A DNA stretch of 64,000 nt from Acidobacteriaceae bacterium. Lineage in GTDB: Bacteria > Acidobacteriota > Terriglobia > Terriglobales > Acidobacteriaceae. Location of the stretch: assembly GCA_025462735.1 (NCBI GenBank), contig JAOAPC010000008.1, forward strand, positions 248,001-312,000, written 5' to 3'. How positions within the stretch are numbered: position 1 is the stretch's first letter; each line of letters begins with the position of its first letter. A model generated the notes under the pieces. It ran no database searches, was not told the origin of the DNA, and saw only the letters and a program-made list of their open reading frames with translations. Position numbers and translations under genes: made by a program. Shown here one piece after another: positions 19,638-38,097 of this stretch.

Positions 19638-20285
19638 ATGCAGCCATTTGCCTTAGCTTACGTCCTCCTCGTATGGACATGGTTAGTTCGCCTGGGTGGG
19701 CCCGGATTGGTCCTGCTCGGCATTGCCGACAACTCCATCATTCCGCTCACCGGCAGCATGGACGTCCTTACTCTCTGGCTGGCCGCGGGTCACCGTAATC
19801 TTTGGCCCTATTACGCAGCTATGGCGACCGCTGGCGCAGTGCTTGGCGGCTACATTACTTATTCGCTAGGGCGTAAGGGAGGCAAAGAGGCCATCGAGAA
19901 GAAAATCAAGAAGTCGAGAGCAGACAAACTGTTCAAGCGTTTCAATCGTTGGGGATTTAGCACCGTTGCCGTGAGCGCCCTGCTCCCGCCGCCGTTTCCG
20001 CTGGTTCCAGTGTTGCTGACCGCCGGTGCCCTGCAATATCCACCCAAAAAGTTTCTGAGCGCGTTGGCCCTTGGGCGTGCTGTGCGTTATTCGCTGATCG
20101 CTGGCTTCGGCTCGTTGTATGCCAGGCAAATCAACGCCTTCTTCAACCGATATTACAAAACAGCGTTATTTATTCTGATTGGATTGGCCGTGCTGGGAGG
20201 CGTCTTCGCGTTGCGCGAATACTTGAATTCCAGACGTAACAACAACCCGCGCCAGCGCGCGGTCTCTCCCAGCCGGGTAGCGTAA
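19638..20285 (+). CDS. DedA/VTT-family membrane protein
   Basis: 215 residues, four to five hydrophobic segments. 'GPGLVLLGIADNSIIPLTGSMDVLTL', 'YITYSLGRKGGKEAIEKK', 'FNRWGFSTVAVSALLPPPFPLVPVLLTAGALQYPPKKFLSALALGRAVRY' correspond to the VTT (DedA) core with re-entrant loops. Members support envelope homeostasis, and some flip undecaprenyl phosphate or phospholipids. The substrate here is unknown. It lies 55 bases after mqnA and is probably co-transcribed with it. Confidence 0.85.
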   Translation: MQPFALAYVLLVWTWLVRLGGPGLVLLGIADNSIIPLTGSMDVLTLWLAAGHRNLWPYYAAMATAGAVLGGYITYSLGRKGGKEAIEKKIKKSRADKLFKRFNRWGFSTVAVSALLPPPFPLVPVLLTAGALQYPPKKFLSALALGRAVRYSLIAGFGSLYARQINAFFNRYYKTALFILIGLAVLGGVFALREYLNSRRNNNPRQRAVSPSRVA

Positions 20286-20295
20286 AGCCCTAGTT

Positions 20296-20398
20296 TTAAG
20301 GTTTCGAGGTTTCGAAGTTTCAAAGTTTCCGAATTCCCAAATGCTTCAAACCCTGAGTTACACACGAAACGTTTGAAACCTTGAAGCATTGAAACCTT
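20296..20398. repeat. GTTTCAAAGTTTC-type repeat cluster
   Basis: Between the DedA-family gene and mqnC, short GTTTCGAGGTTTCGAAGTTTC-like units are followed about 40 bases later by inverted GAAACGTTTGAAACC / GAAGCATTGAAACC units, making a long imperfect palindrome. The style is the same as, but the unit different from, the repeats around the four-helix-bundle gene at 17 kb. No gene lies inside. Confidence 0.6.
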
Positions 20399-20440
20399 CC
20401 TCCCCAGCTCCCTGTCGCCTCATATAAAATTACCTTGAAC

Positions 20441-21487
20441 ATGTCCCTTACCCATCAGCAAGCGCTCGATCTCTACCGCTCTGACGATTTGATCGGAATC
20501 GGCATGGAAGCCGATGCCGTGCGCCGCAAGCTGCATCCCGAAGGCGTCGCTACCTACATCATCGATCGCAACATTAATTACACGAATTTTTGTACAGAAT
20601 ATTGCACCTTTTGTGCGTTTTATCGTCCGCTGAAAGGGCCTCAGGCGAAAGAGGGCTACATCCTCGAGTTCGAGACGATCTACGAAAAAATTCGCGAGAC
20701 CGTCGAGCTCGGAGGCACCGGTGTGCTGATGCAAGGCGGCCTGCATCCTGATCTGAAGATTGACTGGCACGAGCGCATGCTGCGCGGAATCAAAGAGCGC
20801 TTCCCGAAAATTCACCTGCACTGCTATTCCGCGTCGGAAGTGATCGCCATCGCCGAGTACAGCGGCCTCAGCATTCGCGACACGATTTCTAAGCTACGCG
20901 ACGCCGGACTCGACTCCATCCCCGGGGGCGGCGCTGAAATTCTCGACGACGAGGTCCGCCATCGCATCGCCCGCCTGAAGTGCCTCACCGAAGACTGGCT
21001 CAATGTGCACCGCACTGCGCATCAGCTCGGCATGAGAACAACGGCCACGATGATGTTCGGCGTCGGCGAAAAACACGAGCACCGCATCAATCATCTGCAG
21101 GCCATCTACAACTTGCAGGAAGAAACGGGCGGATTTACTGCGTTCATCCCCTGGACATTCCAGCCGCAGAACACCGCCCTCGGCGGCCGTAAGTGGGACG
21201 AGGCCACCGCCGTCGAATACCTGAAGAACCTGGCCATCTCGCGCCTGTTCCTCACGAACTTTCTGAACGTGCAATCGAGCTGGGTCACGCAAGGACTGAA
21301 AGTCTGCCAACTCGGCCTGCGCTTCGGCGGCAACGACGTCGGCTCGGTGATGCTCGAAGAAAACGTCGTCCGCGCTGCCGGCGTGACCAACTGCACCACC
21401 GAAGAAGAGCTGCGCCGCATCATCCGTGATGCCGGATTCAAGCCAGTGCAAAGGGACACGCTGTATCGGACGTACTTCCTGAATTAG
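20441..21487 (+). CDS. mqnC: Cyclic dehypoxanthinyl futalosine synthase MqnC (radical SAM)
   Basis: 348 residues from the ATG at 20441; a TTG six bases earlier is also in frame. The radical-SAM cluster motif is 'CTEYCTFC' (CxxxCxxC, about residues 50-57). 'GVLMQGGLHPDLKIDWHE', 'DSIPGGGAEILDDEVR', 'TTATMMFGVGEKHEHRINHL' and 'GGNDVGSVMLEENVVRAAG' fix the MqnC assignment over the related MqnE. It cyclises dehypoxanthine futalosine on the way to menaquinone. Its last 26 codons (21410-21487) recur as remnants at 24308-24385 and, in part, 25336-25376. Confidence 0.95.
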   Translation: MSLTHQQALDLYRSDDLIGIGMEADAVRRKLHPEGVATYIIDRNINYTNFCTEYCTFCAFYRPLKGPQAKEGYILEFETIYEKIRETVELGGTGVLMQGGLHPDLKIDWHERMLRGIKERFPKIHLHCYSASEVIAIAEYSGLSIRDTISKLRDAGLDSIPGGGAEILDDEVRHRIARLKCLTEDWLNVHRTAHQLGMRTTATMMFGVGEKHEHRINHLQAIYNLQEETGGFTAFIPWTFQPQNTALGGRKWDEATAVEYLKNLAISRLFLTNFLNVQSSWVTQGLKVCQLGLRFGGNDVGSVMLEENVVRAAGVTNCTTEEELRRIIRDAGFKPVQRDTLYRTYFLN

Positions 21488-21563
21488 GCAGCACAGGCCG
21501 TGTGGGTGGGACATTCGTGTCCGACAAGTTCAGGGCAGTTCCGATCAGCAGAATTGAGCAAAC

Positions 21564-21588
21564 AAAAACGGCCTCATTTTGAGGCCGT
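21564..21588 (-). terminator. Rho-independent terminator after the exported protein gene
   Basis: ACGGCCTCA-AAA-TGAGGCCGT followed by TTTTTG on the minus strand. It lies 25 bases beyond the stop of the gene at 21613-22236. Confidence 0.85.
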
Positions 21589-21612
21589 CCTGGATTTCCG
21601 CGCTAATGCTTC

Positions 21613-22236
21613 CTAAAACAAGCTGGTCTCTGGCGTGTTAACGGTGATGCGTGTTGCGGCGATTACACCGGTGACGTGGGCGATCCTGGTATTCGACGCA
21701 TCATACGCATCCGTAACAAACGTACCGGCATAGTGGTTTCGATCTCGACTTAGGACGACATCCTCAACGACCTGAACTGGGCCAGTTGGGTTCCCGACGC
21801 CGCTCGGCGCATTCGCGGTATCGTTGGCTAGCCAAGCGAAGTGATTGAGCTTGTATCTGTTTTTCCCCGTCTTTTCCCAAACGCCCATACAGAAATTCCC
21901 ATCCTGAGGAGGCCGAGCGGAATTCATGATTTCGGTTTTATCGCTGTGCCATACGACCAGGGCGTTGTCTAAAGGGGTACCGTCGGGTGGACCTTCGGCA
22001 TTTCCTTGTGCGGTTAACGTCACGTGCCACATTCCTACGATCGAAGAATCTTCGTCGCGATCGGAGACCATGACCAGGGATCCGGACTGAAGGGCACCCG
22101 ATCCTTGCCACGACTGCCGATGAAAAGTTGCGCCGACTTTAATATCGCCGCACGCTGCGTTTGCCCTCGCAGTGATCATGGAGGCAATGAGGACGATGCC
22201 GAGAACTAATACCATTTTCTTGCATTGTGTTTGCAT
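21613..22236 (-). CDS. Exported protein of unknown function
   Basis: 207 residues with a signal peptide (MQTQCKKMVLVLGIVLIASM...ARANA, cleavage near residue 27). The mature part is beta-rich, with 'SIVGMWHVTLTA', 'GTPLDNALVVWHSDKTEIMNSARPPQDGNFCMGVWEKTGKNRYKLNHFAW' and 'HYAGTFVTDAYD', a pattern reminiscent of small lipocalin-like exported proteins of acidobacteria. Two cysteines remain after processing. GGAG lies before the ATG and a strong terminator follows. It is divergent from the winged-helix/TPR gene. No function is assigned. Confidence 0.8.
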   Translation of the reverse strand: MQTQCKKMVLVLGIVLIASMITARANAACGDIKVGATFHRQSWQGSGALQSGSLVMVSDRDEDSSIVGMWHVTLTAQGNAEGPPDGTPLDNALVVWHSDKTEIMNSARPPQDGNFCMGVWEKTGKNRYKLNHFAWLANDTANAPSGVGNPTGPVQVVEDVVLSRDRNHYAGTFVTDAYDASNTRIAHVTGVIAATRITVNTPETSLF

Positions 22237-22423
22237 GCCATTCTCCTTTGGAAGTTACCGATAACTTGGAGCGGCATCGTGCCTTGAAACACCAGTAATG
22301 GCAATGGATGTGGGGTGAAGCTTTGGTGTAGAAAGGTGAAGGTGTAAGTCATTGAGGCTGCACATTGTTCGACCTTACACGCCGGAATGATGCTATAGTT
22401 TCGTCCTGTTCGCGGGGGCTATC

Positions 22424-24304
22424 TTGCCTGTGCCTTCGTACAATTTCGGCCAGTTCGAGCTGGACGGCGCGCGATTTGAGTTGCGGCGCAATGGAAGAGT
22501 CCTGAAGGTTGAACGCATTCCACTCGAGCTGCTCATCCTACTCGCGGAACGAAATGGAAATATAGTTAGCCGGCAGGAAATCATCGAGCGGCTTTGGGGC
22601 AAAGACGTCTTCGTTGATACCGAGCATGGTATCAACACAGCAATTCGCAAGATTCGATCGGTTCTGTGTGATGACGCAGAGCGCCCGCGCTTTGTCCAGA
22701 CGATTCAGGGCAAAGGCTACCGCTTTCTTGCTGAACCTAACAACGGCCACACAAAACCAATGGAAGTATTCCTGGAACCAAAAACTCCGGCCCGCGCCGA
22801 AGCTTCGCCAGGGAAGCCCCGGCCTTGGTGGGTGCTGGGAGTTGCGGCAATTTCCTTAGGCCTTCTTTCCGGAACACTACTTGGCCTCAACGTGGGTGGA
22901 GTTCGCGATCGGATTTTTTCCGGCGGTCAGCGAGCGCAAATCAGGTCCATCGCTGTGCTTCCTCTAGCCAATCTCTCCGGCGATCCGGCCCAGGATTATT
23001 TCGCCGACGGGATGACTGACGAACTCATCACTGCGCTAGCCAAGAACCGTTCCTTGCGAGTGGTTTCGCGAACTTCAGCCATGCAGTACAAGGGAGTGCG
23101 CCGGCCGCTGCGCGACATTGCACGTGAACTGGGAGTAGACGGCATCCTGGAAGGCTCAGTGACGCGGTCTGGAAATCGGGTACACATGACTGTGCAACTG
23201 ATCTACGCCCCTAGCGACACTCATGTGTGGGCGGAGAGCTACGATCGTGACCCTAGTGAAGTTTTCTCCTTGCCTTCGGAACTGTCAAAAACGATTGCCA
23301 AAGAGGTAAAGATCGCCGTGTCCCCGACTGGCCCGCGTCGATACATCAATCCGGAAGCGCACGATGCTTATTTGCAGGGGCGCTACTTCTGGTTCGGGGA
23401 CAACTCCGAACGAAGTCGCGAGTACTTTGAGAAGGCGATCCAGCTTCAACCAGATTATGCGGCCGCCTGGAGTGGGCTTGCCGACTCTTATGCGGTGCGC
23501 GCGATGGACGGCGTATCTTCTCCGCAAGAAGTCATGGAGAAGGCGGAGGTGGCCGCGCGGAAAGGAATCGAACTCGATGATTCTCTTTCCGCTGCCCATA
23601 ACACCCGGGCCGCCTTGTACCTCTTTCACACCTGGAACTGGCAGAGCGCGGAGGCGGAGTCCCGGCGTGCGCTTGAACTGGATCCCAACAACGCTGAAGC
23701 CCACCATGTGTACTCGTATGTCTTGACCACAATGCAACGACCCGATGAAGCATTGCAGGAACAGAAGCGATCCAGTGAACTCGATCCCTTTGCCAGGCCC
23801 TGGGCGCTCGGAAACGCCTTCATCAAGAACCGGCGGCTTGACGCAGCGGTGAATGAATTTCGCCTCCGCGCCGAAGCGCAGCCGCGAGATAGCTTCACTC
23901 ATTTCATTCTCTCTGATGCCTATTGGTTCAAAGGAATGTGGAAAGAGTCAGTTCAGGAGGCGGAAACGGGATTTCAGATCGAGGGTGACAAGAAATCTGC
24001 TGAAGCCGTCAGGCGTGCTTTTGAATCTGGCGGCGCAAAGGGCTTTGCCGAGTGGTGGCTAAGCGATTGCAAGGCGAAGGCACGCAAAGGATACGTCTCG
24101 CCGTGGACTTTGGCGAGCGCGTATGCGCAGGCGGGACACAAAGAAGAAGCGCTGAGGTTCCTTGAAGACGCGTACCGCGAGCGCTCGCCCCGACTCGTTT
24201 TTATTCAGAACTCGCCGGTCTTCGACTTCTTGCATTCTGACGATCGCTATCAGGCCCTGGTGAAGAAGATGGGGCTGCCGCCGAGTGGCCCGCACATCGA
24301 TTGA
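22424..24304 (+). CDS. Winged-helix (CadC-like) / TolB-like / TPR regulator, copy 1
   Basis: 626 residues from a TTG; an in-frame GTG at 22430, with GGGGG upstream, is equally likely. An OmpR/CadC-type winged helix occupies 8-100 ('LLILLAERNGNIVSRQEIIERLWG', 'FVQTIQGKGYRFLAEP'), then a membrane helix about 132-152. A TolB/adenylate-cyclase-associated domain follows at 170-300 ('LANLSGDPAQDYFADGMTDELI', 'ELGVDGILEGSVTRSG'), then TPR repeats 315-600. It should sense in the periplasm and bind DNA from the membrane. It is paralogous to 31301-33202. Directly after its stop, in frame, comes a copy of the mqnC 3' end. Confidence 0.9.
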   Translation: MPVPSYNFGQFELDGARFELRRNGRVLKVERIPLELLILLAERNGNIVSRQEIIERLWGKDVFVDTEHGINTAIRKIRSVLCDDAERPRFVQTIQGKGYRFLAEPNNGHTKPMEVFLEPKTPARAEASPGKPRPWWVLGVAAISLGLLSGTLLGLNVGGVRDRIFSGGQRAQIRSIAVLPLANLSGDPAQDYFADGMTDELITALAKNRSLRVVSRTSAMQYKGVRRPLRDIARELGVDGILEGSVTRSGNRVHMTVQLIYAPSDTHVWAESYDRDPSEVFSLPSELSKTIAKEVKIAVSPTGPRRYINPEAHDAYLQGRYFWFGDNSERSREYFEKAIQLQPDYAAAWSGLADSYAVRAMDGVSSPQEVMEKAEVAARKGIELDDSLSAAHNTRAALYLFHTWNWQSAEAESRRALELDPNNAEAHHVYSYVLTTMQRPDEALQEQKRSSELDPFARPWALGNAFIKNRRLDAAVNEFRLRAEAQPRDSFTHFILSDAYWFKGMWKESVQEAETGFQIEGDKKSAEAVRRAFESGGAKGFAEWWLSDCKAKARKGYVSPWTLASAYAQAGHKEEALRFLEDAYRERSPRLVFIQNSPVFDFLHSDDRYQALVKKMGLPPSGPHID

Positions 24305-24307
24305 GGA

Positions 24308-24385
24308 TTGCGCCGCATTATCCGCAACACCGGGTTCAAGCTGATGCAGAGGGACACGCTGTACCGGACGCATTTTTTAAACTGA
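24308..24385 (+). pseudogene. mqnC 3'-end remnant A
   Basis: 26 codons reading LRRIIRNTGFKLMQRDTLYR and on to THFLN-stop. 20 of 25 residues equal the MqnC C-terminus encoded at 21410-21487; nucleotide identity is roughly 80% by eye. It begins three bases after the stop codon of the winged-helix/TPR gene, is in that gene's reading frame, and keeps the position of the mqnC stop (TGA instead of TAG). No start codon or upstream mqnC sequence is present, so it is a 3'-terminal fragment only. Confidence 0.85.
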
Positions 24386-24445
24386 GATAGGGATCGGGCG
24401 CGTGCTTCGCTAGCCACGATCTTCTGCCCCAGGGTGGTACAGGTT

Positions 24446-24937
24446 TTAGATTTCAGAGGTGTCCACAGCTGCAGGTGACCCCCCGCTGGCGGAAACCGGT
24501 TTCATGAGTTCCCAGGCTTCGCGATATTGCACTAAGCGGCACTTCTTCGATTCAGGGCGGACACAAACCGAATCGCGACCCTCAATGATTACAGCTGGGA
24601 AAACGTACCAAACATCCTTTGGAAATACGTATGCCACGAGGAAGTCAATCTCGTCGGCCGAATAGGTTGAATTGCAGCCGCGCGTGGTTTTAACCCGATA
24701 CGAATGCCGCGAAGGCTGGGTTGTGATTACAGATTTGACTTGCACACGCCAAAAGATCTTGTCGAAGCGGACGATTACATCGTAGCGGTCGCTGTCTCCC
24801 CAAGGTTTGGCGACGGCGAATCCCAGGCTTGCTGCCTTGCGCATGAAGGAAAGCTCGGCGAGTTCGCCAAGATTTTTCTTATTGAGTTTGGCCGTGTGCT
24901 GAAGTTCGGATTCGATGGTTTCTTTTGAGAATGCCAA
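24446..24937 (-). CDS. PD-(D/E)XK nuclease-like protein (intron-associated endonuclease family)
   Basis: 163 residues. The arrangement 'LGELAELSFMRKAASLGFAVAKPWGDSDRYDVIVRFDKIFWRVQVKSV' gives the family pattern: Glu in the first helix (about 24-27), Asp of 'RYDVIV' and the QxK of 'RVQVKS' in the central strands, which are the metal-binding and catalytic residues of PD-(D/E)XK nucleases. The relatives are small stand-alone proteins first described beside group I introns. No intron is evident here. It lies between two mqnC 3'-end remnants and is the only gene in that interval. Activity and target are unknown. Confidence 0.78.
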   Translation of the reverse strand: MAFSKETIESELQHTAKLNKKNLGELAELSFMRKAASLGFAVAKPWGDSDRYDVIVRFDKIFWRVQVKSVITTQPSRHSYRVKTTRGCNSTYSADEIDFLVAYVFPKDVWYVFPAVIIEGRDSVCVRPESKKCRLVQYREAWELMKPVSASGGSPAAVDTSEI

Positions 24938-25335
24938 GATTCGGCCCCTAAGAATTCGAGATAAGCGGGATCCCTGGATCTACCGCTGCGCGTCGCTCGG
25001 GATGGGGCACGGCCTTTGGCCGTGCCGTGAATCCTTTACATTGACGTACGGTGCGGCTAAAAGCCGCACCCTTTCAAAGCCCGAGGATTTTTTTCGCTAG
25101 GCTGTGAAAGCCGCGTCCACCCGGCCGGACGCTTGAAATTCGGCTTAAACAAAAAGAGCGCGGCTATAGCCGCGCTCTTGAGATTATCTGACTGCTATAT
25201 TCAGAGTAGCAGGTTGAAGGGGTAATTGTGCCACACTTTCAAAGTTTATTTTTGGGTTGGAATCAGCAGCTTATGAGGATTTGAGGTGAAGAGGGGGCTT
25301 GACAAAAGTTTCCACAGTTTGGAGGCCAGTCCGCC
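24938..25335. other. Gene-free stretch with three strong palindromes
   Basis: No convincing gene. It holds inverted repeats at 25006-25026 (GGCACGGCC-TTT-GGCCGTGCC), 25050-25070 (GGTGCGGCT-AAA-AGCCGCACC) and 25154-25179 (a perfect 26-base palindrome AAGAGCGCGGC-TATA-GCCGCGCTCTT). The last has a T run on the minus strand and would act as a minus-strand terminator, yet no minus-strand gene ends there. These look like dispersed REP-like or decayed terminator elements. Confidence 0.6.
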
Positions 25336-25376
25336 CGCATCATCCGCGATGCCGGATTCAGCCAGTGCAGAGGGAC
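25336..25376 (+). pseudogene. mqnC 3'-end remnant B
   Basis: 41 bases match mqnC 21416-21457 at 39 of 42 positions: two transitions and one deleted A, which breaks the frame after 'RIIRDAGF'. It is much closer to the intact mqnC than remnant A is, so it arose later or by a separate event. Homology stops abruptly about 30 bases before the mqnC stop codon. Confidence 0.82.
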
Positions 25377-25531
25377 CTGTTCTGATTTCGTAACAACATG
25401 ACATTGCTTATCGACACGGCGGCACCTAACACTAGAATTCAGGCGCGCATAGGACATTTACGCATATGCGCGTAGTTTGCTTCAGCAAGCCTCGTCAGGA
25501 ACCGTCGAATCACTTAATGAAGGAGATGGAC

Positions 25532-25888
25532 ATGAGACTTCGTTTGATTGTGTGTCTTACAGTTGTATTCAGTTGTGGCGGTGCGTGGTCTCAGACCCTT
25601 AACCGAGCCGCAGAGGAAATCGCGAAGAATAATCCCCTAGCAGCGATTGCTGCTGCGCCTCAGACTGCTTCAGACTTCGAGAACCCGGGCGATTTGCTGT
25701 CGTTTGAGGATCGGGCTTTCTTCTCAAAGCTTCGAATATCAACCGGCGACAGACGAATTCCGGGTTCTCTGTCTAACAGTTGTCCGAATGGTCAACTTCA
25801 ATGTGGGGACGCATGTTGCGGTAGCGATCAACAATGCTGCGTGAACAGTTCGACCGGCGGCCATTACTGCGCTCAAAGATGTAACTAG
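25532..25888 (+). CDS. Cysteine-rich exported protein
   Basis: 118 residues from the ATG at 25532, which has AAGGAG just upstream; an ATG 66 bases earlier has none. A signal peptide (MRLRLIVCLTVVFSCGGAWS) is followed by an Ala-rich helical part and, after 'SLSNS', a compact domain of about 35 residues with eight cysteines ('CPNGQLQCGDACCGSDQQCC...YCAQRC'). The CC pairs and even spacing suggest a disulfide-knotted module like those in toxins, bacteriocin-like peptides and carbohydrate-binding knottins. No enzyme motif is visible and no processing partner is adjacent. Confidence 0.75.
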   Translation: MRLRLIVCLTVVFSCGGAWSQTLNRAAEEIAKNNPLAAIAAAPQTASDFENPGDLLSFEDRAFFSKLRISTGDRRIPGSLSNSCPNGQLQCGDACCGSDQQCCVNSSTGGHYCAQRCN

Positions 25889-26158
25889 CGTTGCCTACTT
25901 CCTTCGGATAAAGGTGGCCCTGCCCGCTGGGTGGGGTCAATTTTCATTTGTGTCCTTCTGCCAGAGCTGGGCTCCCGCTTTGTTCCCAGGTCGACGAATC
26001 GTTCTCAGAGAAACTACATTCCGCAATCTGCCGCCGCGCCGCTGTTCCCCGACGACGTATCCTGCTCCTACGCGAAAGACACCTTGCCATGTAGGGGTAT
26101 CTGCATGCCTGGTATTGCATCCTTGCCGCGAGTGATAATTACTTTTAATGGAGAGTAC

Positions 26159-26779
26159 ATGGACGAAGAACTTAAGAAGAAGGTAATCGAAATTGGGGAG
26201 ACGGTAAAAGCGCTTCCGCCCAATGTCCAGGAAAAGGCTTTCGAAATGCTTCTCGCCCGTGAATTGGGGCTCGGCGGAACAGCTCACCGTGATACCGCAA
26301 CTGGCGGGCAGCAAGGGGCAGGGGAGGCGGCGCAGGCCGGAGCCGAGCAGGCAATACAGACCAAAGGTGGAGAGGATTTAGGCACGAATGACTTGCACCT
26401 AAAGGCTAGAAAATTCCTTGAGAAGCAGAGCCTTTCGTTGGACGATCTGAACGAACTTTTCTATAAACAGGGAGACGACATTGAGCCCCTGTTCGAGGAC
26501 CTTAAGACGACCAAGTCGTCCGAAAGCCAGATTAGGCTGGGCCTGCTGTCCGCGCTTCGTAACGCGATAAAGACTGGCGAATTCGAGTTTAGCGGCGAAG
26601 ACGTTCGCCAGCAGTGCCAACTGAGAAAGACTTACGACAGTACAAACTTCAAAGCGAATTTTCGTAATAACAGGAGACTGTTCGACAAATTTGATAGCTA
26701 CGAGAAGGAGAAGCCCACCATTAGGCTCAGCGAAGAAGGCCGCAGCGAGTTAGCAAAGCTCATCAAGGAGCTTCAGTAA
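26159..26779 (+). CDS. Partner protein of the HEPN-like gene, unknown function
   Basis: 206 residues from the ATG at 26159 (GGAG upstream); an upstream in-frame start would add 76 residues of unlikely sequence. Residues 1-40 are a charged helix, 41-75 an Ala/Gly/Gln-rich linker, and the rest is helical. The C-terminal 60 residues ('STNFKANFRNNRRLFDKFDSYEKEKPTIRLSEEGRSELAKLIKEL') look like a winged-helix module ending in an LSxxGxxELxxLI helix. The next gene starts four bases after its stop, so the two are translationally linked. No family is recognised. A regulatory or antitoxin role is only inference. Confidence 0.72.
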   Translation: MDEELKKKVIEIGETVKALPPNVQEKAFEMLLARELGLGGTAHRDTATGGQQGAGEAAQAGAEQAIQTKGGEDLGTNDLHLKARKFLEKQSLSLDDLNELFYKQGDDIEPLFEDLKTTKSSESQIRLGLLSALRNAIKTGEFEFSGEDVRQQCQLRKTYDSTNFKANFRNNRRLFDKFDSYEKEKPTIRLSEEGRSELAKLIKELQ

Positions 26780-26783
26780 ACGC

Positions 26784-27602
26784 ATGTCTGAGCCGTCGTT
26801 GGTCATTTCACTCAAAGACTTCGGATCCAAGCTGAAGGCGCTCAAGAAGGATGTAAAAGCCGAAACGGTTCAGCAGATTGCAAAGATGTCATTGAGATCG
26901 AGGGCCGAGAGCCTTGGAACCGAATGGTTCTCGTCAATAGAGCCAACTCTGAAGTCGTCAAATTTCGACCCCTCCCTGTTATTGACATACTCGGAGAACT
27001 TCCAGAAATTAATAAAGCTTTCGGGTCCGAGTAATCTCCGCACCCGATATCTAACAGTTTTGAATGACGTCAGCAATGAGTTCAGATCCGATTTCGTTCT
27101 TGCAGCTCAAACTAAGCCAGCTACGCCGACGTCCCAACTCGCGACGCTTCTAGCGGGAATAACGAACACCACGCAGAGCGAATATCTGAAGGAAGCAATC
27201 GAATGCTCCAAATACAAACTCTATCGGGCGGCAGCAATGTTGGGTTGGTCCGCAACTATTGATCAGATCCACCGTGCGATTGAGAAGATAGGGTTTGCTA
27301 AATTCAATATCGCCTCATCCGCCATGGCCAGCCAAACGAAAGGCAGATTCAAGAAGTTCAACCAAGTACAAAACGTTTCTTCGCTGAGTGACCTTAGGGA
27401 GGTATTTGACAACATAATCCTATGGATACTGGAGGGGATGCAGCTGATCGATAGCAATCAACACACTCGACTTCATAGCTGCTTCGAGCTCAGATGCCAA
27501 TGCTCCCATCCGGGCGAGGCACCCATAACGGAGTACAATCTGTTGTCTTTTTTCTCCGATATAAATGAAATTGTCTTCAAGAATCCAAAACTAACTCCGT
27601 AG
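26784..27602 (+). CDS. HEPN-like domain protein
   Basis: 272 residues, soluble and mostly helical. Residues 135-265 fit a HEPN bundle: a first helix 'YLKEAIECSKYKLYRAAAMLGWSATIDQIHRAI', a variable insert, then 'FELRCQCSHPGEAPITEYNLLSFFSDINEIVF' with the R-x4-H signature (Arg237, His242) of HEPN RNases, though the usual Asn after Arg is Cys. The N-terminal 120 residues are not recognised. HEPN proteins act as RNA-cleaving toxins or immunity effectors, often paired with an upstream regulator as here. The codon use looks more AT-rich than in neighbouring core genes, in keeping with transfer. Activity is unproven. Confidence 0.68.
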   Translation: MSEPSLVISLKDFGSKLKALKKDVKAETVQQIAKMSLRSRAESLGTEWFSSIEPTLKSSNFDPSLLLTYSENFQKLIKLSGPSNLRTRYLTVLNDVSNEFRSDFVLAAQTKPATPTSQLATLLAGITNTTQSEYLKEAIECSKYKLYRAAAMLGWSATIDQIHRAIEKIGFAKFNIASSAMASQTKGRFKKFNQVQNVSSLSDLREVFDNIILWILEGMQLIDSNQHTRLHSCFELRCQCSHPGEAPITEYNLLSFFSDINEIVFKNPKLTP

Positions 27603-27673
27603 CGTATTGTTCAGCTGGAAAGTTGGCTTGCATCCCGACAGAACTTAACCTTCGCAAGAGGGTTGTATAGGTC

Positions 27674-27805
27674 ATGTCGATCCTGAGGCTCGCGCTATTG
27701 TCGTTGCTTTTCCTTTGTGTCGCTGGCAGCCTGGCCTACCCTTGGGATTACCAGCCCGAGGCTGCCCCGGCCTTTGCGGTTTTCAGAGGGTGGGAGCCTG
27801 CCTGA
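27674..27805 (+). CDS. Possible 43-residue secreted peptide
   Basis: A short frame from ATG 27674 to TGA 27803-27805. It begins MSILRLALLSLLFLCVAGSL, a convincing signal peptide, and leaves about 22 residues, 'YPWDYQPEAAPAFAVFRGWEP'. The ribosome-binding site is weak (AGGTC right before the ATG), and no terminator is clear. It could equally be a chance frame between the HEPN operon and the alcohol dehydrogenase. Confidence 0.4.
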   Translation: MSILRLALLSLLFLCVAGSLAYPWDYQPEAAPAFAVFRGWEPA

Positions 27806-27969
27806 CGTTCACTCCAAGCCGTGTTTCGCAGGCACGGTTTTTATCTTGCAAAACTCACTATCAGCAGTACAATTCGGACGGTTCCGACCGCAGAAGATTC
27901 CTATCCACGTGTTCATCAGATCAGTTTTCCTGATTGGTCTGAAGAAGACGGCGCCACCAAGGAGGCCAC

Positions 27970-29076
27970 ATGAGCGCACTGCGAGCTGTACCAATTCCTG
28001 AAGAAGCACCGAAGCCCCAAACCTACACAGCCAAGGCGTATGCGGCGCAGAGTCCAACGTCGAGCATGGCGGCAATTACCATTCCGCGACGCACGCCGCA
28101 GCCGAAAGATGTTCAGATCGAGATTCTCTACTGCGGCGTCTGTCACACCGATCTGCATTTCGCCCACAACGATTTTGCCAATTCCATTCCAACCACTTAT
28201 CCCTGCGTGCCCGGCCACGAGATCGTAGGACGGGTGGTGAAAACTGGTAATGCGGTCACGAAATTTAGAAACGGCGACCTGGCTGCGGTGGGCTGCATGG
28301 TGGATTCGGACCGCACGTGCGAGAGCTGCCGCGAAGGTGAAGAGCAATATTGCGCGAGCATGCCTGTCCTCACCTACAACGGGCCGGACAAGCATCTCGG
28401 CGGAGTCACCTACGGCGGCTATTCACAAAGCGTGGTCGTGGACGAGGATTTCGTGCTGCACGTGCCGAAAAACCTGAACCTCGCGGCCGCAGCTCCGCTG
28501 CTCTGCGCCGGGATCACGACGTATGCTCCGCTCCGCCGCGCCAAAATTCGGGCGGGACAGAAGGTGGGCATCGTGGGCCTTGGCGGACTCGGCCATATAG
28601 GCGTTAAATTCGCGGCGGCGTTCGGGGCGAATGTCGTTGTTTTCACCACGAGTGCCAACAAAACCGCTGACGCGATCCGGCTCGGCGCGCACGAGGTTGT
28701 GAATTCAAAGAATGACGCCGAAATGCAGAAACATGCGGGCACGTTTCATTTCATCCTTGACACTGTACCCGTGCAGCACAACATCAATCCTTACATCAAC
28801 CTGCTGAAGCGAGACGGAACGCTCGGGCTGGTCGGCGCTCCGGCAGAGCCTTTGCCGCTCGAGGTGTTCGGCCTGCTGTTCGGGCGCAAGCACATCTCAG
28901 GCTCGATCATAGGCGGCATCCGCGAGACGCAAGAGATGCTGGATTTCTGTGGCGAGCACAACGTCACGGCGGACGTCGAAATGATCGGCATTCAGCAGAT
29001 CAATCAAGCCTATGATCGCCTGCTGAAGAACGACGTGAAATACCGCTTCGTGATTGATATGGCATCGCTGAAGTAG
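27970..29076 (+). CDS. Zinc-dependent alcohol/aldehyde dehydrogenase, CAD/YahK-like
   Basis: 368 residues with AAGGAGG before the ATG. A GroES-like catalytic domain has 'CGVCHTDLH' (catalytic Cys58) and 'PGHEIVGRVV' (His83, Glu84). A Rossmann domain follows with 'GIVGLGGLGHIGVKFAAAFG'. Family: NADP(H)-dependent cinnamyl-alcohol-type dehydrogenases with broad aldehyde range. In the structural zinc loop 'CMVDSDRTCESCREGEEQYC' the first of four ligands is Asp114 in place of Cys. The C-terminus 'KYRFVIDMASLK' recurs as a remnant after the winged-helix/TPR gene at 33.2 kb. Confidence 0.93.
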   Translation: MSALRAVPIPEEAPKPQTYTAKAYAAQSPTSSMAAITIPRRTPQPKDVQIEILYCGVCHTDLHFAHNDFANSIPTTYPCVPGHEIVGRVVKTGNAVTKFRNGDLAAVGCMVDSDRTCESCREGEEQYCASMPVLTYNGPDKHLGGVTYGGYSQSVVVDEDFVLHVPKNLNLAAAAPLLCAGITTYAPLRRAKIRAGQKVGIVGLGGLGHIGVKFAAAFGANVVVFTTSANKTADAIRLGAHEVVNSKNDAEMQKHAGTFHFILDTVPVQHNINPYINLLKRDGTLGLVGAPAEPLPLEVFGLLFGRKHISGSIIGGIRETQEMLDFCGEHNVTADVEMIGIQQINQAYDRLLKNDVKYRFVIDMASLK

Positions 29077-29118
29077 GCAGGTTCGTGGCACGAATCGTGT
29101 TGGTTACCATGTCAAAAC

Positions 29119-29155
29119 CCCCACCCTATCGCAAAGAACGCGATAAGGGTGGGGC
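29119..29155. repeat. REP-like hairpin CCCCACCCTATCGC / GCGATAAGGGTGGGG
   Basis: A stem of about 14 base pairs with one bulged base and a seven-base loop lies between the convergent alcohol dehydrogenase and DUF1810 genes. CCCCACCCT...AGGGTGGGG hairpins are frequent dispersed elements in acidobacterial genomes as far as I know. There is no T run, so it is not an ordinary terminator. Confidence 0.7.
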
Positions 29156-29186
29156 AACCTCAGATTTTTGCGAACCTCAGCTGGAT

Positions 29187-29648
29187 TCAAAGTCTCTGTT
29201 GCCCCAGGTATCCGAGAGTGAGCGGATCAAGTTCACCGGCGAAGTATTTCTCCAGTGCGTCGATGAAAATCTGATTCTCCGGCGCGGCATTGGCGGGCGT
29301 AGCTTTGGCGAAGAGTGTCATCGATGATCGGAATTTCATAGCGTCAATGGCCCCGAATATGTTCTCAGCGGAGTGTCCCTCGACAGCATTCACCAGTTGA
29401 GTGCATTCTTGAAGCCGCGGACCAAGAACCGGGTGTTGCAGGTAAGCAGCGGCCTCTTGTAATGACAAAATTCCAAAAAAGTTAGATTGCGCGGTGTGTC
29501 CCAGGCCTTTGAGTTGGGGAAAAATGAACCACATCCAGTGGCTGCGCTTGCGCCCTTGTGTAAGTTCAGCGGTCACGCTAGCGATAACGTGCTGCTGTGC
29601 GTCAACAAACCGTTCGAGGTTGTAGGGGTCGTCTAGTTTCACGTTCAT
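29187..29648 (-). CDS. DUF1810 family protein
   Basis: 153 residues from the ATG at 29646-29648. The family opening 'DPYNLERFVDAQQHVIASVTAELTQGRKRSHWMWFIFPQLKGLGHT' is followed by 'EAAAYLQHPVLGPRLQECTQLVN', 'ENIFGAIDAMKFRSSMTLFAKA' and 'FIDALEKYFAGELDPLTLGYL', all typical of DUF1810 (calpastatin-like annotation in some databases). It is small, helical and cytoplasmic. Its function is unknown. Confidence 0.9.
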   Translation of the reverse strand: MNVKLDDPYNLERFVDAQQHVIASVTAELTQGRKRSHWMWFIFPQLKGLGHTAQSNFFGILSLQEAAAYLQHPVLGPRLQECTQLVNAVEGHSAENIFGAIDAMKFRSSMTLFAKATPANAAPENQIFIDALEKYFAGELDPLTLGYLGQQRL

Positions 29649-29829
29649 TTCCGAAGGGGTACTCTCAATTCTTATGATGTCAAAACGGAGCCATCGTTTG
29701 ACAAGGGAAGCGCGATAGCCTACCGTGGTTGATGAGTTAGCACGTCCTCCCACTCTTTCAGGTTCTCTGAACTAAGTCAGCCCATCTGAAGTTTTCCCAC
29801 CTTAGTCACGCACTGAAAGGACCACATCC

Positions 29830-30294
29830 ATGAAAAGAATCATGCTTACGTTTTTTGCTTCGATCGTAGTATTGGCAGTCCTGAGCCCGGTCGCCGCGGC
29901 GAAGAAGGCCATAAGCGGTGACGCTGTTGCCGCGATTACGCAATTTGAGAACGATGCCGTGAAGGCTGATCTGGCGGGAGATTCATCGTTCTTCCAGAAG
30001 AATTATGCCGACAACTGGACCGGCGGCTTCAGTGGTGGAACCTGGACCACGAAGGAATCGATGTTGGCCGATATGAAAGATACCACCAACAACAAAATGA
30101 ACAGCGAAGAGATCAGCGATCTCAAGGTCCGCGTTTACGACAGCAACACCGCCATCGCTACGTACACCAGCACTTATGATGCGATGATCCGCGGCGAACA
30201 CCGCGCCAAGACGGTCTTGAGCACCGACACTTTTGTTCTGCAGAACGGTACTTGGAAAGAAGTTGCAGGCCACAGTTCGGTTGCCGCGAAGTAG
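29830..30294 (+). CDS. Exported SnoaL-like / DUF4440 protein
   Basis: 154 residues. A signal peptide (MKRIMLTFFASIVVLAVLSPVAAA) precedes an NTF2-like domain: 'AVAAITQFENDAVKADLAGDSSFFQKNYADNWTGGFSGGTWTTKESMLADMKD', 'SDLKVRVYDSNTAIATYTSTYDA', 'STDTFVLQNGTWKEVAGHSS'. The cone-shaped fold usually binds small hydrophobic ligands. No catalytic residue is obvious. 'GAAAGGA' precedes the start. A bidirectional terminator at 30400-30432 ends it. Confidence 0.88.
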   Translation: MKRIMLTFFASIVVLAVLSPVAAAKKAISGDAVAAITQFENDAVKADLAGDSSFFQKNYADNWTGGFSGGTWTTKESMLADMKDTTNNKMNSEEISDLKVRVYDSNTAIATYTSTYDAMIRGEHRAKTVLSTDTFVLQNGTWKEVAGHSSVAAK

Positions 30295-30399
30295 ATTAGC
30301 GTCTTGTTTGACCGGGAAAACCCCGCTTCTCGCACAAGGCAAGAAGTGGGGCACCCTGGTTTTCCGTGATCCAAATTCCTCGTGACTTCGCAAGGTAGC

Positions 30400-30432
30400 A
30401 AAAAGGGCTGGCGGTTAGCAGCCCTTTCTTTT
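30400..30432. terminator. Bidirectional rho-independent terminator
   Basis: AAGGGCTG-GCGGTTAG-CAGCCCTT has TTCTTTT after it on the plus strand and TTTTTG after it on the minus strand. It lies between the convergent SnoaL-like gene (plus) and cupredoxin gene (minus) and serves both. Confidence 0.82.
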
Positions 30433-30447
30433 ACTGCCTTGCCTGGG

Positions 30448-31029
30448 TCATTTGACCTCGACCGTGACCCGCATCCATGGATGGATACAGCACTCGAAAT
30501 GGTGCTCCCCTTTTGACAGGTTCGTGACCTCCATCTGGCTGCCTTGAATAAGTCGAGTCTTGGCGACGGCGACATTCGAAAAACCCCCGGAGCACTCGTG
30601 CACCGTCTGCTCGCCCGCATTGAGGCCATCGATAAACCCGCCACCAAACTTCTTGACCTCGGTAAAGGTGTGAGGCTCGCCGCCCTGATCGGTTACGACA
30701 AGAGTCGTTCCTTCTTTGATCGTCAGCGTGTCGGGTTCGAAGTCCCAACCTGGATCCGGAGCCTTGGCAGCCGCCTTTGTAAATAAGTCGGACAGAGTTG
30801 TGCTGAATCCCAGCGCCCCTAGCGCGACGTTCTTGCAGAAGTCAGGGCCAAGTGCGGCATTGAAGGTGATCGGATCGCATTCGTCCAGCGCTACAATTGG
30901 GGCGATCCGGGCTGATTTATCGTCATTGTCGCTTTTATTGTGGGTTTCATTCTGCGCAACCGCGCATGTGGCGGCGAGCAGTATCAAGCTGCCAACGACT
31001 AGTCCGAGCTTCGGCATGGTAATTCCCAT
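30448..31029 (-). CDS. Exported cupredoxin-like protein
   Basis: 193 residues with a signal peptide (cleavage after VAQ, about residue 26). The C-terminal 100 residues form a type-1 copper fold: 'PDTLTIKEGTTLVVTDQGGEPHTFTEV' provides the first His, and 'GEHHFECCIHPWMRVTVEV' gives the Cys, second His and Met ligands in the C-x2-H-x2-M spacing seen in plastocyanin-like proteins. It should bind copper in the periplasm. The sequence before the cupredoxin part (40-90), with two further cysteines, is not recognised. Its electron partner is unknown. Confidence 0.86.
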   Translation of the reverse strand: MGITMPKLGLVVGSLILLAATCAVAQNETHNKSDNDDKSARIAPIVALDECDPITFNAALGPDFCKNVALGALGFSTTLSDLFTKAAAKAPDPGWDFEPDTLTIKEGTTLVVTDQGGEPHTFTEVKKFGGGFIDGLNAGEQTVHECSGGFSNVAVAKTRLIQGSQMEVTNLSKGEHHFECCIHPWMRVTVEVK

Positions 31030-31300
31030 ATTCCTTCTCCTTATTAATATTGTCGGGTCATGGCTCGGAAGGGCGACTAGCCTGGGACCTCAATCCCTGG
31101 AAGTGCTGGTTCTCAAGCGCGATGAACAGCGGTGATTGTTGTCCACAGACCGGAAACCTTCAATGCCTGCAGCCTCCTTCTCTCCCCATAGTTTTCTCCA
31201 TTGCTAAACTATTGATGAACAAAGCTGTTCGCGGCCTACGCAAAGAGGTCTCCAAGCACAAAAAACTGTGATAGGCTCTGCAAAGTTCGTGGAACTCGCC

Positions 31301-33202
31301 ATGTCCGTCTCTGCCCCAGCCGCCCGTGTCCTGCGCTTCAACATTTTTGAATTGGATGTTCGCGCGGGCGAGCTGCGTAAACGCGGTTTGAAACTGCGAC
31401 TGCAAGGCCAACCGCTCGAAGTGCTGGCAATATTGCTGCAGCGCGCAGGCGACGTGGTGACTCGCGAAGAACTCCGGACGCAAATGTGGACGGCCGATAC
31501 CTTTGTCGATTTCGATCACAGCCTTCACAACGCAATTGCGAGACTTCGCGAAGCGCTGGGCGATTCAGCCGAGACCCCTCGTTACATCGAAACCCTGCCA
31601 CGACGCGGATACAGGTTTATTGCACCCGTGGAGGAGATTGGGGTCCAGAAATCCCAGCCGCCTTCACAAAGCACGCAGGCCCGCGAAGCACCGGTTCGGG
31701 AGAGGCGGAGCATCGGTCGGCTGGCTATAGCACTCACGCTTCTGGGTCTGCTTTTTACGGGATTGGGCCTGTGGGTTGTCTCGGCATTTTCGCGACACGC
31801 AATTGTGGCTCCGCCCATTCACTCCCTAGCCGTTCTGCCCCTGGCCAACTTTTCCGGCGATCCGTCCCAGGATTTTTTCGTTGATGGAATGACGGACGAG
31901 TTAATCACTGACCTCGCCAAAGTTAGCGCTCTCCGCGTGATCTCCCGAACTTCGGTGATGCGCTACAAAGGCACAAAAAAGGGTTTGCCGGAGATTGCGC
32001 GAGAATTGAACGTGGACGGGATAGTCGAGGGATCCGTCACGCGCTCCGGTCAACGAATCCGAATTACCGCCCAGTTGCTTCATGCACCCACAGATAAGCA
32101 CCTCTGGGCAGAAACCTATGAGCGTGATCTTGGCGACGTCCTCAGGTTACAAAGTGAGGTGGCGCAGGCGATAGCACAGCAAGTCCGTGCACAAGTAACT
32201 CCGCAGCAACAGGTCCAGCTCCGCTCGGCCCGCCCCGTGAACCCAGAGGCGTACGAAGCCTATCTGCGAGGGCGTTATTACCTGTCAAACCAGTTCACGA
32301 TGGCGCAGCCTTTGAATCAGGCGAAAAGCTACTTTGAAGAATCAATCAAGAAAGATCCTGGCTTTGCCCTGGCGTACTCGGGCTTGGCAGATTCTTATGT
32401 GTATTTGTCACTTTTCCATCAGATACCACCAGAGATTGCTTATCAGTCTGCGACAGAAGCCTTACACAGGGCTGCGGAACTCGACGACACCATCGGGGAA
32501 GTCCACGATACCCTTGCCCTGCTAGGTTGGCGCTTCAAGTGGGACTGGGCCGCTGCCGAACGGGAGTTGGATGAAGCGATTGCTCTGGCACCGAGTTACA
32601 GTTGCGCTCACGAGGACCACGCGGTGTATCTCGGATTTATGGGCCGGCGCGATGAGGCTCTGGCTGAACTCGCCAAAAGTAAAGAGATGGATCCGGGTCC
32701 CAGCTCCGCTATGTCCGAAGCGGGGACCTTTTATCAGCTACGGGATTGGCCGCGTTTGGTCGAAACTAGCCGCCGAGGAATTGCTTCGAATCCCAATGAA
32801 TGGGTCGAGCACTACAATCTCGCGGTCGGCTACGAAGGTACGAACAAATTACTGGAAGCCATTTCTGAATATCAGAAGGCAGTTGAGATTTCAAATGGCG
32901 ATCAGGATGCGATGGCCGCGCTCGCGCATGCTTATGCCGTGATCGGCAAAAGATATGAAGCGCAGAAGATTCTTCGTGACTTACAGCAGAAATCGAAAAC
33001 TGCCTATGTCTCGCCATACTTCTTCGCAACCATATACGCTGGACTGGGCGAGAAGGACAAAGCGTTCGAGTTCCTGGAAAAAGCTTACCGCGAGAAATCG
33101 TTGGAGATCGGCTGGCATCTCAAAGCCGACTTGCGGATTGACAATCTCCGCTCCGATCTGCGATTCCAGAAATTACTACAGCGAATTGGCTTTCCTGGCT
33201 AA
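31301..33202 (+). CDS. Winged-helix (CadC-like) / TolB-like / TPR regulator, copy 2
   Basis: 633 residues from the ATG at 31301; an upstream GTG at 31268 is also in frame. It has the same plan as the gene at 22424: winged helix 8-100 ('VLAILLQRAGDVVTREELRTQMW', 'YIETLPRRGYRFIAPV'), one membrane helix about 137-160, a TolB-like domain 170-300 ('LANFSGDPSQDFFVDGMTDELI', 'ELNVDGIVEGSVTRSG') and TPRs to the end. The two copies are clear paralogs. Its stop is followed in frame by a copy of a zinc alcohol dehydrogenase 3' end. The target genes are unknown; the divergent cupredoxin gene is a candidate by position. Confidence 0.9.
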   Translation: MSVSAPAARVLRFNIFELDVRAGELRKRGLKLRLQGQPLEVLAILLQRAGDVVTREELRTQMWTADTFVDFDHSLHNAIARLREALGDSAETPRYIETLPRRGYRFIAPVEEIGVQKSQPPSQSTQAREAPVRERRSIGRLAIALTLLGLLFTGLGLWVVSAFSRHAIVAPPIHSLAVLPLANFSGDPSQDFFVDGMTDELITDLAKVSALRVISRTSVMRYKGTKKGLPEIARELNVDGIVEGSVTRSGQRIRITAQLLHAPTDKHLWAETYERDLGDVLRLQSEVAQAIAQQVRAQVTPQQQVQLRSARPVNPEAYEAYLRGRYYLSNQFTMAQPLNQAKSYFEESIKKDPGFALAYSGLADSYVYLSLFHQIPPEIAYQSATEALHRAAELDDTIGEVHDTLALLGWRFKWDWAAAERELDEAIALAPSYSCAHEDHAVYLGFMGRRDEALAELAKSKEMDPGPSSAMSEAGTFYQLRDWPRLVETSRRGIASNPNEWVEHYNLAVGYEGTNKLLEAISEYQKAVEISNGDQDAMAALAHAYAVIGKRYEAQKILRDLQQKSKTAYVSPYFFATIYAGLGEKDKAFEFLEKAYREKSLEIGWHLKADLRIDNLRSDLRFQKLLQRIGFPG

Positions 33203-33247
33203 AACGCTGCCTCGAAATACCGCTTTGTCATCGATATGTCCGCTTAA
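33203..33247 (+). pseudogene. Alcohol dehydrogenase 3'-end remnant C
   Basis: Fourteen codons directly after the stop of the second winged-helix/TPR gene, in the same frame, read NAASKYRFVIDMSA and then TAA. KYRFVIDM equals the C-terminus of the dehydrogenase at 27970-29076, and 22 of 25 bases (33214-33238 versus 29037-29061) match. Only the tail is present. A different dehydrogenase paralog could be the true source, since this C-terminal motif is conserved in the family. Confidence 0.7.
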
Positions 33248-33310
33248 AGTAACCACCTTCAGGCTACGTTCTCGTTTTACTGAAAATAGGCATATCCGCA
33301 AATAAGGCAT

Positions 33311-34022: not shown

Positions 34023-34034
34023 GCCTCCTAGACC

Positions 34035-36477: not shown

Positions 36478-38097
36478 ATGCCCGTACCCATATTTCTGGC
36501 CTTTATTTTCGCCCAGCAGGGGCTCTCGCAATACGTCCGCCAACACTTTCTTGATACTACATTCAGGGGTCTTTACCACGCCAATGCCTTCGACATGGCG
36601 CTGCTCATACCGTATTTCGTGGTGCTGATTTTGCTGGCGACGTACGGAATCCATCGTTACACGCTGGTGTATCTGTATTACAAGAACAAGAAAAATCAAA
36701 CCACTGAGCCCGAGGAGAAATTCTCCGAACTGCCTCGTGTTACCGTCCAGCTTCCCATTTTCAATGAGCAGTTTGTGATTGACCGTCTGCTGCAGGCGAT
36801 TTGCCGGCTGGATTATCCGCGCGAGAAGCTGGAGATTCAGGTCCTGGACGACTCCACAGATGAGACAGTCGATGTTGCGAGCGGGTTGGTCGAGTACTAC
36901 GCAGCGCAGGGATATCCGGTCACTTACCACCATCGCAGCAATCGCGCTGGATTCAAGGCGGGCGCTTTACATGAAGGATTGAGGTCGGCGAGCGGGGAAT
37001 TCGTTGCCATCTTCGACGCAGATTTCGTCCCGCCGCCTGATTTTCTTGAGCGCACAATTCATCACTTCACTGGTGAAAAGGTTGGCATGGTCCAAACGCG
37101 CTGGACCCACATCAACCGCCATTATTCTTTTCTGACCGAGGTTGAGGCCATCCTGCTCGATGGACACTTTGTGCTGGAACACTCCGGCCGCGCACGCAGC
37201 AACGTGTTTTTTAACTTCAATGGGACTGCGGGTGTATGGCGGCGCAAGGCCATCGACGACGCCGGCGGCTGGCAGCACGACACGCTCACCGAGGACACCG
37301 ACCTCTCTTACCGCGCTCAATTAAAGGGATGGAAGTTTATTTATCGGCAAGACGTCGAGTGCCCTGCCGAGCTGCCGGTAGAAATGACCGCATTTAAGAC
37401 GCAGCAAGCGCGATGGGCGAAAGGGCTGATCCAGACCGGAAAGAAGATTCTGCCGCGCGTGCTCAAGAGTGATCAACCGTTTCGGGTGAAGCTGGAATCC
37501 TGGTATCACTTGACCGCGAATCTGAGCTATCCCTTGATGGTCGTTCTCTCGGTGCTGTTGCTGCCGGCGATGGTTATTCGCTTTTACCAGGGCTGGTTTC
37601 AGATGCTCTACATCGACGTGCCCCTCTTCCTGGCTTCGACATTTTCGATTTCAAGCTTCTACCTGGTCTCGCAGCGCGAACTCTTTCCGAAGACATGGCC
37701 GCGGGCGCTGCTCTACTTGCCATTCTTAATGGCGTTAGGAATCGGACTGACCGTAACCAACACCTGTGCCGTCGTCGAAGCGCTTATCGGAAAACAAACA
37801 GCCTTCGCGCGCACGCCGAAGTATCGCGTGGAATCGAAAAAAGACAGAGTGCAGGGCGCAAAATACCGCAAGCGTCTCGGTTGGGTGCCGTGGATCGAGA
37901 TGCTGATCGGCGGTTATTTCGCGTTGACGGTTTATTATGCGGTGCAGAATGAGAATTATCTCACCGTGCCTTTTCTAATGCTCTTCGTAGTGGGCTATTG
38001 GTACACGGGGCTGATGTCGCTACTGCAAGGGCGCTTTGCGGGACTGGATCTCAGTCCGGCGGAGAGTCATTCCAAGCCTTTCCCGGTCGGAGTCTGA
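36478..38097 (+). CDS. Processive family 2 glycosyltransferase (cellulose-synthase-like)
   Basis: 539 residues. An N-terminal membrane helix (about 35-60) precedes the GT2 domain with 'VQLPIFNEQFVIDRLLQAIC', 'EIQVLDDSTDET', 'VAIFDADFVPP', 'TEDTDLSYR' and 'QQARWAKG' (QxxRW), the complete set of processive D,D,D,QxxRW residues. Four to five membrane helices follow (345-540). It builds a beta-linked polysaccharide or a glycolipid at the inner membrane. No cellulose or PNAG accessory gene lies nearby, so the product is open. Confidence 0.92.
   Translation: MPVPIFLAFIFAQQGLSQYVRQHFLDTTFRGLYHANAFDMALLIPYFVVLILLATYGIHRYTLVYLYYKNKKNQTTEPEEKFSELPRVTVQLPIFNEQFVIDRLLQAICRLDYPREKLEIQVLDDSTDETVDVASGLVEYYAAQGYPVTYHHRSNRAGFKAGALHEGLRSASGEFVAIFDADFVPPPDFLERTIHHFTGEKVGMVQTRWTHINRHYSFLTEVEAILLDGHFVLEHSGRARSNVFFNFNGTAGVWRRKAIDDAGGWQHDTLTEDTDLSYRAQLKGWKFIYRQDVECPAELPVEMTAFKTQQARWAKGLIQTGKKILPRVLKSDQPFRVKLESWYHLTANLSYPLMVVLSVLLLPAMVIRFYQGWFQMLYIDVPLFLASTFSISSFYLVSQRELFPKTWPRALLYLPFLMALGIGLTVTNTCAVVEALIGKQTAFARTPKYRVESKKDRVQGAKYRKRLGWVPWIEMLIGGYFALTVYYAVQNENYLTVPFLMLFVVGYWYTGLMSLLQGRFAGLDLSPAESHSKPFPVGV

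Follow-up and report, generated by a model that had tools for sequence, protein, structure and literature searches.

Repeated copies of the mqnC 3′ end downstream of mqnC in an acidobacterial genome and its relatives

Same-strand copies of the 3′ end of mqnC lie behind mqnC itself in seven of 158 loci, including that of the Acidobacteriaceae genome described here. The nine copies, each matching the mqnC of its own locus at E < 1e-6, are found 0.35 to 3.9 kb downstream of the gene and mostly behind other genes; their recurrence and strandedness are solid observations. The reading that we favor, as moderately probable, is that DNA bearing an mqnC tail together with a gene recombined into mqnC, which was kept whole while its old tail was left downstream.

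Two tail copies behind mqnC in the window

The window, by which we mean the whole 64,000-nucleotide stretch that was analyzed, contains an intact mqnC whose score with its NCBIfam model, 479.6 bits, exceeds the cut-off of 428.1 (Table 1). The preliminary description of this DNA had placed an in-frame copy of the mqnC 3′ end directly after the stop codon (TGA, positions 24302 to 24304) of a winged-helix/TPR gene, and this copy, here called copy 1, is real. It corresponds to the last 26 codons of mqnC, begins 2.8 kb past the mqnC stop on the mqnC strand, as described, and reads LRRIIRNTGFKLMQRDTLYRTHFLN against LRRIIRDAGFKPVQRDTLYRTYFLN in MqnC, with 20 of 25 residues shared and the stop at the same position. 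The E value of the match excludes chance. The base change had been put at about 20%; it is 26% over the whole copy, and identity to the mqnC tail reaches 81% in the best ungapped segment, of 67 nt. All 20 differences from the resident mqnC are transitions, distributed 6/2/12 over the codon positions. A gapped alignment adds a candidate extension of the copy back to mqnC position −94, over the last TPR codons.

Copy 2, which had not been reported, is partial, carries a 1-nt deletion, and sits beyond the PD-(D/E)XK endonuclease gene as seen from copy 1. Comparison of the window with itself gave three pairs at E < 1e-6, two of them formed by the copies and the third by TPR paralogues, and the six other mqnC-tail matches in the genome all had E values of 2 or more. 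Both copies are most likely without function.

Table 1. Features of the mqnC region in the window and tail copies behind mqnC in relatives (+ positions are nucleotides downstream of mqnC)
Feature	Position	Strand	Basis or match
mqnC, intact, cyclic dehypoxanthinyl futalosine synthase	20441..21487	+	NCBIfam TIGR03699; Pfam CofH_C and Radical_SAM
mqnC 3′ end, repeated downstream	21410..21487	+	Sequence comparison
Terminator-like hairpin behind mqnC, CGGCCTCATTTTGAGGCCG	21569..21587	+	Pattern scan, 81 loci
207-aa ORF, first cargo gene	21613..22236	-	ORF
Winged-helix/TPR gene, second cargo gene	22424..24304	+	Pfam Trans_reg_C and TPR
mqnC tail copy 1	24308..24385	+	58/78 bases, 20/25 residues, stop kept; E 7e-14
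PD-(D/E)XK endonuclease gene, I-Ssp6803I-like	24446..24937	-	Pfam, PDB, PADLOC
Conserved stretch upstream of endonuclease gene	25147..25317	-	82% to G001, 73% to G083
mqnC tail copy 2, partial	25335..25376	+	93% over 43 nt; E 1.3e-10
Conserved gene, directly after mqnC in many relatives	36478..38097	+	Comparison, 81 loci
G078 copies	+767; +384		186 nt; 66 nt
G439 copy	+648		98 nt
G406 copy	+1567		64 nt, 97%
G374 copy	+783 (start put at +779 to +783)		82 nt
G025 copy	+1513		54 nt
G131 copy	+350		51 nt

Hairpins like the one behind mqnC in the window are also found 3′ of mqnC, or of mqnC tail copies, in relatives. The first cargo gene, the 207-aa ORF, had no match in Pfam, PADLOC, or NCBIfam at E 0.001; a relative of it adjoins a TPR relative in other genomes. 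A second winged-helix/TPR gene is located at 31268 to 33202, its protein being 38.5% identical to that of the gene preceding copy 1. The endonuclease gene was identified by Pfam PF11645 (E 8e-20), PDB entry 2ost (E 1.6e-13), and the PADLOC model "homing endonuclease" (E 2.4e-15). Its family is patchy and multicopy, occurring in 25 of 120 relatives with up to 16 members per genome, some with internal stops. Over 111 nt, the conserved stretch upstream of it shares 86% identity with the region upstream of a paralogue in the same genome (L177:5824-5934), as against 55% for the two proteins, so conservation is stronger in the noncoding part than in the gene. In 46 of 81 loci, the gene that directly follows mqnC in many relatives occurs 34 to 14,991 nt past the mqnC stop in the same orientation, and the largest of these distances is that of the window. 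An Rfam scan of positions 20000 to 37000 for RNA elements returned a single match, far below its gathering score.

Copy 1 belongs to mqnC rather than to the TPR gene

Stop-codon readthrough would make the tail an extension of the TPR protein. The tail lies in the TPR frame (a one-in-three chance), three bases past the stop, and is open until the mqnC stop, and copy 1 has an excess of silent changes. TPR relatives argue the other way. Nine loci were checked, of which eight had a TPR match; two of these were pieces of others, leaving six other places. At none of the six did the 120 nt past the stop, read by eye, contain an mqnC-like tail, and the proteins end at other residues. The tail therefore belongs to mqnC, as had been proposed, and its description as part of the TPR gene is rejected; neither readthrough nor selection on it as a TPR extension is supported. 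Copies in other genomes follow unrelated genes, and some contain stops, while four changes private to copy 1 hit bases that are nearly constant among mqnC tails (see below). We regard readthrough as extremely improbable.

Tail copies recur behind mqnC in relatives

We compared 158 distinct mqnC loci from this family of Acidobacteriota, the window included, each with at least 200 nt and at most 5 kb downstream (712 kb in total); they remained from 160 after removal of a duplicate (L298, the same as L282) and of one locus with under 200 nt downstream. The copy-bearing loci are the window and G078, with two copies each, and G439, G406, G374, G025, and G131, with one each. They span five genera (g1, g64, g110, g19, and, three times, g9); the signature of an insertion leaving a duplicated target 3′ end, noted at first in the window, is thus present at mqnC in four further genera. 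By title, the 80 named relatives are metagenome assemblies; the copies are 75 to 97% identical to their own mqnC and hence are not assembly echoes. The G406 copy, at 97%, is on this measure the youngest. Seven of the nine end no more than 4 nt short of the stop or run past it, and copy 1 does so too when read in frame. Two weaker matches were kept outside these counts: G420 (41 nt, 76%, E 6e-5) and G028 (60 nt, 72%, E 2e-4).

The opposite strand of the 158 loci held no mqnC-tail copy at E < 0.01. The preceding 250 nt of mqnC gave no same-strand match in the same loci at E < 0.01 and five opposite-strand matches, the best with an E value of 5e-4.

The proportion 7/158 is no frequency, since the window is the finding itself and five other loci were chosen after earlier matches: G078 entered through the search with copy 1, and G131, G439, G374, and G025 through extra matches, G406 being unflagged. 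An unselected sample of 80 loci, taken by mqnC identity alone (79 usable, 68 shared with the other set), contained copies in two of 79 (G078 and G131). An earlier scan of 39 relative loci, a set to which the copy-bearing relatives did not belong, found copies in the window only.

As a control, 563 other ORFs of at least 200 aa in the long loci were compared with their own downstream DNA. Nine had a same-strand match to their own 3′ end at E < 1e-6: six were flagged as paralogues, one was a questionable ORF containing a dispersed repeat, and the remaining two, in L235 and L237, were 63 to 64% identical and did not reach the stop. Set against three of 563 control ORFs, the partly selected 7/158 gives P = 0.001, and the unselected 2/79 gives P = 0.12, which is not clearly above other genes. 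It is likely that mqnC is special among genes in carrying tail copies. Some draft genomes of the family appear to contain two mqnC genes, which may be real or may stem from mixed bins: G163 (C305 and C315), G284 (C171 and C194), G025 (C28 and C33), and G014 (C22 and C25).

Cargo between mqnC and the copies

The DNA separating the copy from the mqnC stop differs from genome to genome. In G374 it is a Gp49-like protein and an antidote-like protein by Pfam, by inference a toxin-antitoxin pair, and the second stop ends at +776, just before the start of the copy. G439 has a 199-aa protein to which no Pfam family matched (its stop lies at +627), and G078 an 89-aa ORF with no family match; in G406 the protein is 344 aa long and contains a chitobiase C-terminal domain. 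In G025 a cargo gene precedes the copy and its 43% paralogue follows it; in G131, 349 nt separate the mqnC stop from the copy.

Modules are shared behind mqnC across species, in differing order. The endonuclease unit is found there in the window genome, G001, and G083; G001 also has a Fic/Doc gene, with like DNA recognized by eye in G083, as well as part of the 89-aa ORF of G078. The G374 pair is likewise present in G389, in G009, and, in pieces, in G360.

A displaced mqnC end in its old surroundings

A terminator-like hairpin comes after mqnC in G021, G163, G067, and G086 (imperfect in G067, where it was recognized by eye), and a tRNA-like gene on the opposite strand comes next, 183 to 217 nt past the stop. 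In G078 the 89-aa ORF comes next after the intact mqnC, and it is the shorter tail copy that is followed by the terminator and then, 168 nt past the copy's stop, by the tRNA-like gene. This copy is thus an old mqnC end in its old surroundings, still backed by the DNA that follows mqnC in relatives, which supports the insertion reading of the preliminary description. Hairpins also lie away from mqnC in G003, G239, G381, and G131, with no tail before them beyond chance; not every insertion, then, leaves or keeps a tail.

ARAGORN placed a tRNA-like gene 3′ of mqnC in eight of 81 loci and found none in the window. The gene (L217:8367-8584, with homologues in L044, L240, L210, L208, L209, L235, and L239) scores 47 to 56 bits with the Rfam tRNA model in seven loci, and ARAGORN calls it Asp, with gtc or atc. 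It has a trailer complementary to its own anticodon arm. Across eight genomes, seven of 15 pairs between trailer and arm have changed on both sides, and 94% of cells pair, against 26 to 46% with the partner slid. A promoter-like TTGATT-17-GATAAT, recognized by eye before the trailer, could give rise to a small RNA.

Age and origin of the copies

Of the changes in copy 1, 14 of 20 are silent (P = 0.003 against neutral transitions). Four non-silent changes fall at sites where 55 to 58 of the 58 tails compared share one base; these tails include the resident one and one G078 copy. The silent excess and the private changes would fit divergence in the working mqnC of a separate lineage, followed by decay. 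The mqnC of G001 and of some other species is at least as close to copy 1 as the resident mqnC, and among 398 genomes, with two candidates scored per genome, no mqnC tail was nearer to it than about 83%. The resident mqnC itself gave no sign of mosaicism, its last 186 nt and the remainder having the same nearest relative. Homology between the window and G001 sets in within the final codons of copy 1 and continues into the endonuclease unit, a hint from the alignment that copy 1 may already have stood beside this unit before the species diverged. Copy 2 and the longer G078 copy have their own mqnC as nearest relative. A search for an empty site corresponding to the window genome found none.

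Alternative explanations

Gene-end repeats of this kind recall a site-specific integrase. With the mqnC 3′ end as attachment site, an incoming element would restore the gene and leave its old end as attR, the integrase having since been lost or acting from elsewhere. tRNA genes are usual integrase targets, and a tRNA-like gene is found behind mqnC in some loci, as noted above. The gene is whole, the orientation is the same, the module lies between tails, and the tail reaches the stop; such elements have been described at the ends of genes (PMC8409611). Among the first five copies, moreover, three have starts within 6 nt of one another, which would suit a fixed site, with P between 0.01 and 0.09 depending on the range in a test confined to those five copies, the later ones diluting the clustering. 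The left ends of all nine copies vary from −53 to −186, a difference of over 130 nt, and no integrase was recognized in the scanned cargo proteins (from the copy-bearing loci other than G025 and G131) or among the 25 listed of 79 Pfam families for 32 nearby ORFs. An IS200-like transposase gene in G078 lies about 3 kb behind mqnC, outside the tails. We judge an integrase decidedly unlikely, though integrative elements at gene ends stay the chief competing reading. Tandem duplication in place of the mqnC end and its downstream DNA, followed by loss and ordinary gene insertion, is likewise an unlikely account, although several copies lend themselves to it. Behind each of the two G078 copies lie a similar terminator and a sequence complementary to a tRNA-like gene, the G025 gene and its paralogue flank a copy, and copy 2 and the longer G078 copy are nearest to their own mqnC. 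The changes in copy 1 are compatible with it as well, the corresponding test (14 of 19 silent, P = 0.07) not firmly rejecting duplication in place. Against it, whole genes that differ by genome separate the stop from the copy, and copy 1 shows no special closeness to the resident mqnC when other species are compared.

The endonuclease gene between copies 1 and 2 raises a further alternative, that a homing-type enzyme cuts mqnC alleles near their end and that repair copies in the gene and its neighbors. Such a gene also lies behind mqnC in G001 and G083, but the cargo is different at six of the seven loci with copies. Among 30 loci of the endonuclease family, at least six of them cut by contig ends and one (L097) left uninspected, a gene-tail repeat was seen at the window's locus only; the repeats at five others were dispersed or tandem. 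The endonuclease is not supported as a general driver, and homing as the explanation is very unlikely.

Insertion at the mqnC end as the preferred explanation

The varied left ends, the lack of a recognized integrase, the small cargo, and the intact mqnC together favor a crossover combined with an illegitimate joint. Incoming DNA that bore one or a few genes together with an mqnC 3′ end would recombine with the resident mqnC; mqnC would keep a complete tail, the new genes would stand behind it, and a second tail would lie beyond the new genes. The likely reaction would combine a crossover in mqnC with illegitimate joining of the cargo's opposite end to a point within the mqnC tail; alternatively, a small circle so formed might integrate by a single crossover. 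The joints between cargo and tail are variable among the nine copies. Several results weigh against this reading: neither an empty site nor a donor tail was found, the resident mqnC shows no foreign 3′ end, four displaced terminators have no tail before them, and in the unselected sample mqnC does not clearly exceed the control ORFs. A single insertion had been proposed for the window; insertion with a tail copy is supported, but copy 2 implies at least one further event that was missed, and copies 1 and 2 would be scars that two or more events left at the mqnC 3′ end. The foreign origin of the DNA, the homologous recombination, and the order of events in the window are all inferred.

A broader idea, which we put forward tentatively and consider rather unlikely, is that the mqnC end serves as an integrase-free docking site in this family of Acidobacteriota, where tail-borne modules that travel between species land by recombination in the tail and stack. 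The same tentativeness applies to its corollary, that the modules are toxin-antitoxin pairs, selfish endonucleases, and regulators and that each scar can be ordered and roughly dated.

If insertion at the mqnC end is correct, gene-tail scars would record gene gain without mobile-element enzymes. They would give the order of events, the outermost being the oldest provided that new modules land beside mqnC, and their divergence would give a rough age. Integrase-free hotspots would become testable strain by strain, and the scars would caution against taking such tails for protein extensions.

Comparison with known systems

The individual parts of this phenomenon are already known; a narrow literature search found no core-gene tail described as a repeated integrase-free landing place for unrelated small modules with visible displaced tails. 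Single crossovers with circularized molecules in Escherichia coli left gene-end duplications of 109 to 950 bp (PMC3240628). The homology-facilitated illegitimate recombination described there would resemble the mqnC case, as read here, in that one side is anchored by homology, the other is joined elsewhere, and the gene end is partially duplicated; those were laboratory plasmid events in E. coli, whereas the mqnC events are natural and recurrent, small genes are stacked, and the copies measure 42 to 186 nt. Integrase-free hotspots beside recombining core genes have also been documented (PMC5635113), in which variable genes adjoin a core gene with no recognized mobility genes, as at mqnC. The model given there is a double crossover in both flanking core genes, with no tail copies, whereas at mqnC there are displaced ends. 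Elements that integrate at the 3′ or 5′ limits of protein genes, among them trmE, yicC, and dusA, keep their target whole by incoming sequence and have a repeat on the far side (PMC8409611). Like such elements, the mqnC loci have a complete target gene with its old end on the far side. In contrast to them, the mqnC cases have no recognized integrase and apparently no constant core and carry one to three small genes.
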